Positions 49,432-52,289 of a stretch of DNA of 52,892 bases are shown piece by piece; the stretch's first letter is position 1; every line of letters starts with the position of its first letter. The stretch is from positions 1 through 52,892 of the IMG/VR virus record IMGVR_UViG_3300028800_000119, one strand, 5' to 3'. Under the pieces are notes generated by a model that was not told the origin of the DNA, searched no databases, and saw only the letters and a list, made by a program, of their open reading frames with translations. Made by a program: the position numbers and the translations under genes. Source of the DNA: a virus.

Positions 49432-49704
49432 ATGAAAAAACTAGTAAAAGTCGAAGAAGTTTCTGGTGAAGGTCTTATTGGACTGTTAGGTGATACCGTA
49501 ACCCTATTCTGTCTAAACTACATCTATGCAGGCAAACTTATAGGTGTAAATGAAACATTTGTACAACTTGAAAATGCACATATTGTATATGAAACCGGTG
49601 CTTTTTCAGATAAAAAATTCAAAGATGCACAAAAAATTTCTAATACTGTTTTTTATGTGCAAATTTCAGCAATTGAAGGCTTTGGCGCAGTAAAGGAATT
49701 ATAA
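49432..49704 (+). CDS. Conserved phage protein of unknown function
   Basis: 90 aa from ATG 49432 with GAAGGAG upstream. GEGLIGLLGDTVTLFCLNYI then YAGKLIGVNETFVQLENAHI and VYETG, the typical sequence of a small conserved phage family likely to be an SH3-like barrel (an LSM-like look). Opens the early operon. TAATG overlap with the repeat gene. Confidence 0.8.
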   Translation: MKKLVKVEEVSGEGLIGLLGDTVTLFCLNYIYAGKLIGVNETFVQLENAHIVYETGAFSDKKFKDAQKISNTVFYVQISAIEGFGAVKEL

Positions 49705-49931
49705 TGAATCACGTGAAACGAAGTCACAAACAAAAATGGTCAGGGTCATGGTCAAGGTCAAGGTCATGGTCAGGGTCAGGGTCATGGTCATGGTCATGGT
49801 CAAGGTCAGGGGCATGGTCAGGGTCAGGGTCAAGGTCAAGGTCAGGGTTATGGTCAAGGTCAAAGTCAGGGTCATGGTCAGGGTCAGGGTCAGGGTCATG
49901 GTCAAGGTCATGGTTAAGGTCAAGGTCATGA
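49704..49931 (+). CDS. WS/RS/GS repeat protein
   Basis: 75 aa. ATG 49704 overlaps the previous stop (TAATG) and its TGA overlaps the next start (ATGA), so this frame is probably the real one. After [11 protein letters not shown] the whole protein is 32 dipeptides X-S, where X is Trp (11), Gly (11), or Arg/Lys (10), with two Ser to Leu and one Ser to Ala changes. No signal or globular part. Probably disordered, basic and aromatic; it may form phase-separating or nucleic-acid-binding material. Confidence 0.6.
49737..49928 (+). repeat. 32 tandem hexamers NGGTCA
   Basis: Hexamer (T/G/A)GGTCA repeated 32 times; the variable base is T 11, G 11, A 10 and never C. The non-variable five bases are nearly constant (GGGGCA, GGGTTA, AAGTCA and TGGTTA are the exceptions). 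The repeat is 192 bases long and codes for the previous entry. Confidence 0.95.
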
Positions 49932-50221
49932 AATCTAAAAAGTCCGAGGTGCAAATGAAACATATTTCTATACATCAAAAAACTGGCATAGAAAAAAGGC
50001 ATGATTTTCTACATGTAGCAACAAAGAAAACTGTTATTAGCTCAGTACATGGAAAGGATGGTAATATAGGTGCCATTTTAAAGGATCTTTCAATAAAAGA
50101 TCTAGAAAAATTAGTTAAACTTGCAAAATTACGTAAGAAAGAATGCTATAAATATAAAAACTATTTCGTGCACGTATCTCCAGATTTATCTATTTTGATG
50201 AAGGGTAAAGGCAAGAAATAA
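49928..50221 (+). CDS. Basic hypothetical protein
   Basis: 97 aa from ATG 49928 ([20 protein letters not shown]), overlapping the repeat gene's stop. Lys-rich helices (IKDLEKLVKLAKLRKKECYK) and a C-terminal basic tail. Function unknown; the longer upstream frame through the repeats is not taken as real. Confidence 0.65.
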   Translation: MKSKKSEVQMKHISIHQKTGIEKRHDFLHVATKKTVISSVHGKDGNIGAILKDLSIKDLEKLVKLAKLRKKECYKYKNYFVHVSPDLSILMKGKGKK

Positions 50222-51342: not shown

Positions 51343-52289
51343 TCAAACTAACAGACGAAATAACTCGTGCCCTATGTCAAATCCAAGCAGAAGATCATGT
51401 AGTGCTCTCGGGCCTTAAAGCCAAGCTTTTTGAATCAGTCGCACCCGTTTTCGAAAAGGAAGGCTCGGATGCCTATTTTCCTCTTCGTCCCAGTGGGTGC
51501 CTGAAGCCTCTCCGCGATTTGTTCTATGATCTGAAGAACTTCTATGCACCAAACACAATAGAAAAAAGGGGCTTTGAACCCCGAACCCAACTTATATTTC
51601 AGTTTGGCCATCTAACTGAGGCACTTTTATCCAAACTTTGCAAGCACAATTTTGACGTGCAATTTGAACAACAACGCGTAAAATATGGCGAACTTACTGA
51701 CAAGGATGGCACCAAAATTCCTTTGACGGGTGCTATCGATTGGGCAATGCGACTTGATTTTACTTCGGAAGAACTCTATCTTTGTGATGCCAAGAGTATT
51801 GGTGACTATCCTTTTAAAAGTGCACCAAAAGAAGCTAATATAGCGCAAATGCAACTTTATATGCATTCTGATTGGGGACGAAAAAACAATGTCAATAAAG
51901 CTATACTCATTTATTTTAATAAGAATACTAGTGATATTAAATGTATTCAGTTGGACTATGACTCTGGTCTTGCTACAAAATTATTTCAGCGATTAGAGTT
52001 AGCATTTGACTATTATAAACGAGATGAGGTGCCTCCTCGTGAATACCTCGCTGGCCTCGATTGGCAAGCTGACTATTCTCAATATAGGGACTTTGATAAC
52101 ATCGAATTTACTGATGGTGCACTACGAAAAATAGTTGCTGAAGCTGAATATTACAAACCTTCTAGATCAGCGAAAGATAACATTCGTGCACATGTAGCAA
52201 AATATGGTAATTCTGTTGCAGTATATATTGATAAAACGGTTTGTGTTGTGTATAATAGTGATGGAAAGTTGGAATTGAGGATTTCATGA
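51339..52289 (+). CDS. PD-(D/E)XK exonuclease, Cas4/RecB-like
   Basis: 316 aa. Core motifs: a helix with FQFGHLTEALL (Glu), PLTGAIDWAMRL (the Asp), LYLCDAKSIGDY (the E/D-x-K) and ANIAQMQLYMHS (QxxxY). That is the layout of phage recombination exonucleases of the RecB/Cas4 type. N-terminal Cys (SGCLKPLRDLFY) may contribute to an iron-sulfur site, but the four Cys pattern is not visible. Probable role in recombination or end-processing with the polymerase. Confidence 0.75.
   Translation: MIKLTDEITRALCQIQAEDHVVLSGLKAKLFESVAPVFEKEGSDAYFPLRPSGCLKPLRDLFYDLKNFYAPNTIEKRGFEPRTQLIFQFGHLTEALLSKLCKHNFDVQFEQQRVKYGELTDKDGTKIPLTGAIDWAMRLDFTSEELYLCDAKSIGDYPFKSAPKEANIAQMQLYMHSDWGRKNNVNKAILIYFNKNTSDIKCIQLDYDSGLATKLFQRLELAFDYYKRDEVPPREYLAGLDWQADYSQYRDFDNIEFTDGALRKIVAEAEYYKPSRSAKDNIRAHVAKYGNSVAVYIDKTVCVVYNSDGKLELRIS

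Follow-up and report, generated by a model that had tools for sequence, protein, structure and literature searches.

The window, that is, the whole stretch of DNA analyzed here, was a viral record of 52,892 bases with a GC content of 0.40, which encoded terminase, portal, major head protein and DNA polymerase. Two overlapping genes on the plus strand were studied. Gene A (49432..49704, +) encoded a 90-aa protein with a predicted Sm/LSm fold and was placed in subfamily 1 (MKKLVKVEEV...NYIYAGKLIGVN...) based on relatives, alignments, AlphaFold models and PDB matches. Gene B (49704..49931, +), identified as an ORF and from the gene order in relatives, encoded a 75-aa (X-S)n repeat protein. The ATG of gene B overlapped the TAA of gene A (TAATG), and a Shine-Dalgarno-like AGGA for gene B was read from the sequence 6 nt upstream of the ATG, within the 3' end of gene A (49694..49697, +). 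Gene B was composed of a short leader (49704..49736, +), which was basic like those of other subfamily 1 partners in the leader charge comparison, and an array of 32 hexamers NGGTCA encoding (W/G/R)-S (49737..49928, +), and nothing more, the stop codon following directly.

The array was detected independently by TRF and was supported by in-register reading and per-position entropy. Read in register from 49737, the first base of the 32 units was T in 11, G in 11, A in 10 and C in none, which reproduced the array and the counts of the original prediction. Its description of the units as NGGTCA with X as Trp, Gly or Arg held exactly for 28 of 32 hexamers; the other four carried one change each (GGGGCA at 49809, GGGTTA at 49845, AAGTCA at 49863 and TGGTTA at 49911), by which X became Lys once and Ser was replaced three times, once by Ala and twice by Leu. 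The frames GGT-CAN (Gly-His/Gln) and GTC-ANG (Val-(K/M/R)) were also open in the window and were rejected as coding frames because relatives showed other residues or stops there. A 161-aa ORF (49736-50221) that would carry the Val frame on into the following gene was rejected too, as this gene started separately at 49955 and no relatives were found. A second tandem array, made of (W/R/E)-S-A-A units (TGG/AGG/GAG TCG GCG GCG), was observed at the contig end (52746-52892). It closed an ORF starting at 52286 with weak PHROG matches (phrog_18326, 4e-6), also lacked CGG, and was broken by the end of the contig.

With gene A of the window as the sole bait, 23 loci were recovered from IMG/VR, and in nearly all of them the next gene was an (X-S)n array whose Ser codon differed (TCA, TCT, TCG, TCC or AGT/AGC). 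A hexamer scan matched at least 119 stretches, and clustering of the genes preceding these arrays revealed one dominant family of 69 members in two branches, subfamily 1, the branch of the window (MKKLVKVEEV...NYIYTGKL), and subfamily 2 (...YLIRTVTMIYTGRL...AAWIADTGRFSDA...NEVEPFP). Gene A was 90-120 aa long across the family and was followed by gene B, usually with an overlap. When subfamily 2 was used as bait, 397 stretches of viral contigs were matched and 393 confirmed, compared with 13 confirmed in prokaryotes, all of them MAGs (one genome per species, 84,980 species), indicating that the pair was mainly viral. Automatic detection at the loci fetched through gene A gave arrays for 68 of 79 and 19 of 23 viral loci and for 11 of 13 MAG loci, the 79 being the best of about 400 subfamily 2 stretches; by eye, counting arrays that were short or cut by a contig end, about 73 of these best 79 carried one. 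Several loci contained three to six (X-S)n arrays as tandem paralogues (L240, L237, L029, L107, L015, L012, L024, L047, L132 and L199), at least two arrays were present in 32 of 188 loci, and the repeat genes were consecutive in several such cases. In the arrays at positions 5001-6500 of L132, Met (ATG) replaced much of the Trp, with up to 9 Met per 28 units. A contig of 649 kb from an Isosphaeraceae MAG carried one member of the pair (L161), which suggests that the phage had a planctomycete as its host and was integrated as a prophage.

The two genes were closely arranged. In 64 of the 69 arrays preceded by a homologue of gene A, the start of gene B fell between -10 and +40 nt relative to the gene A stop. 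A Shine-Dalgarno core was present before 75 of 168 starts of gene B, whereas random positions had one in 11%. The conserved C-terminus of subfamily 2 gene A, LPRSQK, encodes AAGGAG, which is likely the ribosome site of gene B. The mean net charge of leaders was +3.1 with subfamily 1 (41 distinct) and +0.4 with subfamily 2 (93 distinct, consensus MNAAILRTGFD). This tracking of the gene A subfamily by the leader type would fit a contact between the A and B proteins but also plain linkage. Named neighbours of the pair belonged mostly to replication and recombination (helicase, exonuclease, RecE/RecT, primase, polymerase, RNR, Gam and SSB), and the frequent position among such genes suggests early use. 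We are close to certain that A and B form a coding, conserved gene pair.

The pair was also present in one deposited circular myovirus genome (MW202573.1, proteins UOF78857 and UOF78858), where gene B was annotated as a hypothetical protein (UOF78858.1). Among reference phages, only two gene A relatives were found at the protein level, with the features named hypothetical or missing, and a plasmid search gave no match. No published description of the pair was found in the open-access literature on repeat motifs, phage dipeptide or RS repeats and phage Sm-like proteins, a scope to which most subscription papers and bioRxiv did not belong.

The coding content of the repeat was evaluated in two sets, one of 177 distinct related arrays with 15 or more units each and one of 110 arrays of relatives sampled independently of the repeat. 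The Ser codon was uniform inside most arrays and varied among phages (TCA, TCG, TCT, TCC, AGC, AGT). Since Ser was maintained despite differing codons, AGY included, the conserved object was the (X-S)n protein with X being W, G or R. None of the 177 arrays had a stop in the X-S frame, compared with 13 in the +1 and 20 in the +2 frame, and the residues encoded in these two frames varied from phage to phage. The mean shares were 0.29 for W, 0.33 for G and 0.31 for R, the spread of the W share corresponded to binomial noise, and the composition was held across 23-72% GC with a weak correlation to GC (|r| about 0.2 or less). In general, gene B consisted of a short leader and about 17-41 X-S dipeptides with roughly equal W, G and R shares, giving about 8 Trp and a net charge of +9 per array. 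These sequence patterns indicated that selection acts on the protein. Among Ser codons one base off the dominant one, 132 non-synonymous and 36 synonymous cases were counted against an opportunity of 20007:12227; single non-synonymous Ser changes were not depleted, and selection would thus act on the array as a whole and not on single units. The same tolerance of single Ser replacements, together with the commonness of hexamer slippage, could speak for an unselected microsatellite that is open by chance. This explanation has practically no standing and was already refuted by hundreds of phages that differ in codons and GC but share the residues, the leaders, the start overlap and the neighbour gene.

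Variation was concentrated at one base of the unit. In the 110 repeat-independent relatives, the entropy of the six hexamer positions was 1.56, 0.30, 0.20, 0.10, 0.11 and 0.18 bits, and Gly was encoded by GGG in 1567 of 1633 cases. Because Trp has TGG as its only codon, Gly and Arg would be pulled to GGG and AGG/CGG by homogenisation. The GG at codon positions 2-3 was retained in AT-rich phages too, and with AGY Ser codons, which could also be expected if the element worked at the RNA level, with the run of NGG codons or the GG-N4 repeats throttling translation, draining tRNAs or folding into two-tier G-quadruplexes bound by gene A, and with the protein as a by-product. NGG codons at the 5' end have been described as suppressive through peptidyl-tRNA drop-off (PMC12204400). 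However, Ser survived switches between codon families, the leaders were conserved as protein, and homogenisation around the single Trp codon accounts for the GG, so that an RNA-level element seems quite improbable.

The original prediction had described the variable base of the array as never C and had given zero C a chance of (3/4)^32, or 1e-4. The arithmetic was right, but the null of equal bases and independent units fails because the array grows by unit turnover. Among the 177 arrays, C was missing from 71, A from 79, G from 2 and T from none, whereas independent draws from the pooled frequencies predict 1.7 arrays lacking C and 3.1 lacking A. The base sets at this position were CGT in 78, AGT in 70, ACGT in 27 and others in 2, and in the repeat-independent sample CGT in 61, AGT in 32, ACGT in 14 and others in 3 of 110. 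As T and G were practically always present, the preserved feature was the residues W, G and R, and A or C represented the choice of Arg codon. Arrays with CGG occurred in GC-richer loci (mean 0.55 vs 0.43). Homologues of the array that sit next to the same gene (L137, L138, L148, L150) also used CGG. The prediction had proposed to look in related phages for C and had itself named homologues with C as what would refute it, so never C does not stand as a rule. In most arrays a single Arg codon remains, and in the window array this is AGG, which leaves no C at the variable base. The missing C is ordinary, and the array, in a window of 40% GC, is a usual AGG array. The gene pair, undescribed and common in phages, is more interesting than the missing C.

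Comparison of related phages, the other check that had been proposed, revealed that both order and number of units were variable. Two loci with flanks 100% identical over 1000 bases (L048 and L074) carried 22 and 15 units, a difference explained by one loss of 7 units, and the arrays of L069 and L116 differed by one unit. A local rearrangement of the array was found in L230 and L235 with flanks of 99.9% identity, and at 92% (L065 and L078) the array ends were kept and the middle was altered. L109 and L171, the latter with an array identical to that of L011, had flanks of 93% identity and a unit order unalignable beyond chance (z -1.9); both used TCA for Ser in every unit, and whole-array exchange between phages may have occurred. 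Six related contigs with identical flanks (L141-L146) shared one identical 22-unit array, so the change of the array is not instantaneous. Judged from these alignments, order and number of units change far faster than the flanks. Block repeats were significant in 32 of 177 arrays. Contigs ended inside the array in 13 of 79 cases compared with 0.86 expected, and exact repeats at these ends were mostly shorter than 36 nt; the excess would point to mixed variants within samples.

A DNA-level process had been proposed as the source of variety. Slippage or recombination of units was supported by the pairs L048/L074, L069/L116 and L109/L171, and the targeted base mutation named beside it was not, with no template copy and a reverse transcriptase in 1 of 40 records. 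A mutator such as a diversity-generating retroelement or biased repair, hitting the first base of the units and yielding A, G and T, could draw on two observations: the X residue had a heterozygosity of 0.70, far above the Ser (0.06) and Gly (0.05) codons of the same arrays, and the units followed each other nearly at random, the window array lacking a higher-order repeat (p 0.92). In diversity-generating retroelements, too, one codon position is strongly variable and the others are fixed. Differently from these systems, the residues in the array were restricted, no template repeat and no second array copy were present in the window record (possibly incomplete), where all pattern matches fell in one array, and reverse transcriptase was absent from the window and from 38 of its 39 relatives. 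Moreover, a base mutator predicts neither the near-constant retention of T and G nor the mostly mutual exclusion of A and C. With the identical arrays of the six contigs and the whole-unit indels between near-identical phages also standing against it, a mutator is very unlikely. In simulation, block gain and loss combined with selection on composition reproduced the diversity and the repeat length. Adjacent identical X residues were rarer than in shuffles (0.275 vs 0.303, z -4.4, 177 arrays); simulated block turnover with composition selection predicted an excess instead, and the simulation of targeted mutation likewise did not predict the deficit.

The structure of gene A was predicted by AlphaFold from a 54-row superfamily alignment (model 1) and from subfamily 2 alone (model 2), with pLDDT of 92.8 and 92.6, respectively. 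Compared with the PDB by Foldseek and VIA-align, both models matched Sm/LSm structures almost exclusively (model 1, Z up to 10.3, 9.2 at rank 50; model 2, Z up to 9.9, 8.7 at rank 50), where models without a clear match reach 4-5 at rank 50. All 50 listed rows were Sm/LSm chains or complexes, superposed at 1.6-3.3 A over 61-76 residues, in agreement with an Sm barrel, bent and built of about five strands. Set against the RNA-site motifs D-x-x-N (Sm1) and R-G (Sm2), the alignments showed VI(V/I)GRGxIIDA at the Sm2 position in subfamily 2, and no conservation of the Sm1 Asp/Asn, subfamily 1 included. These models make it very probable that gene A has the Sm fold. No family in Pfam, PHROGs, NCBIfam or PADLOC matched gene A above threshold, Pfam LSM (PF01423) matched neither the 54 members nor the window record, a profile search against PDB LSm sequences gave no match, and hhalign against archaeal LSm gave E 0.06 and a probability of 0.5%, though colinear. 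As sequence comparison gives no support for homology, gene A is termed Sm-fold and not a proven LSm member.

Given a predicted Sm-fold protein and a composition-conserved repeat protein, we assign a probability of about 0.5 to the reading that the pair as a whole is a phage ribonucleoprotein-type module, with gene B selected for bulk composition and not for order. The products of the translationally coupled genes A and B would associate into a ribonucleoprotein-type complex. The Sm-like A, as a ring or a subunit, would be the part that binds nucleic acid or a partner. Gene B would be a basic, Trp-rich and probably disordered chain, whose bulk W and R would serve to bind nucleic acid or to drive assembly, a role likened to that of the disordered tails of Hfq and eukaryotic Sm/LSm proteins; such tails of Sm proteins tune RNA binding (PMC5606850). 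Through slippage or recombination, blocks of units would be added, deleted or duplicated, and this turnover would homogenise the Ser codon and the third base while selection on composition retains W, G and R. It is rather doubtful, though conceivable, that the pair is a ribonucleoprotein condensate system of Sm-fold rings and a separate sticker-spacer protein, whose function is set only by the share of Trp, Arg and Gly and whose order is continually reshuffled by unit recombination, perhaps blocking host adaptation.

Antimicrobial peptides rich in Trp and Arg and with a net positive charge are known. Gene B resembles them in content and charge, and as its composition is free of order and the pair is tight with A first, it could be a cationic membrane-active or otherwise toxic peptide with gene A as its chaperone or antidote. 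This is improbable, in that Ser makes up half of the residues, the predicted Sm fold of gene A is no known antitoxin fold, the neighbours are replication and not lysis genes, and PADLOC gave no match. If the ribonucleoprotein-type module is right, an unannotated pair of Sm-fold and repeat proteins is present in hundreds of environmental phages and forms a large new branch beside the few Sm-like proteins known from mobile elements. The repeat would be an unusually clean natural case of conserved composition and free order, with three interchangeable codons one base apart and many variants, by which the need of disordered chains for order or composition becomes directly testable.

In eukaryotes, RS domains and RG-rich Sm tails are Arg-Ser or Arg-Gly low-complexity chains that occur with Sm-core particles. 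The phage pair resembles them in having a low-complexity Arg chain alongside a predicted Sm core, and homology is not claimed. The difference is that one third of gene B is Trp-Ser and one third Gly-Ser; with about 1/3 of its dipeptides being RS and an ORF of leader and array only, gene B does not resemble an RS-domain or SR protein, in which Arg-Ser runs go together with an RNA-recognition domain and phosphorylated serines. Hfq also combines an Sm fold with a disordered segment tuning nucleic-acid binding (PMC5606850), features which are predicted here, but in Hfq the tip is acidic and belongs to the Sm chain itself (PMC5606850), whereas gene B is basic, Trp-rich and separately encoded, and gene A is not matched by LSM models. 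Compared with gene A by description, Adephagia gp39 (PMC11373665) and thermococcal plasmid proteins (PMC3543421) are likewise Hfq/Sm-like proteins of mobile elements predicted by fold or profile, and the parts of these reports considered mention no dipeptide-repeat partner. Borg extrachromosomal elements encode Sm ribonucleoproteins that bear disordered extensions of rapidly evolving tandem repeats, and are thus alike in that a mobile element ties an Sm protein to a fast-evolving tandem-repeat peptide predicted to be disordered (PMC9879509). Of 19 cases in Borgs, 5 have the repeat as an N-terminal fusion to the Sm protein, with units of 4-17 aa (PMC9879509), whereas the phage repeat is encoded by its own gene coupled to gene A, with 2-aa units and one composition shared by hundreds of members.
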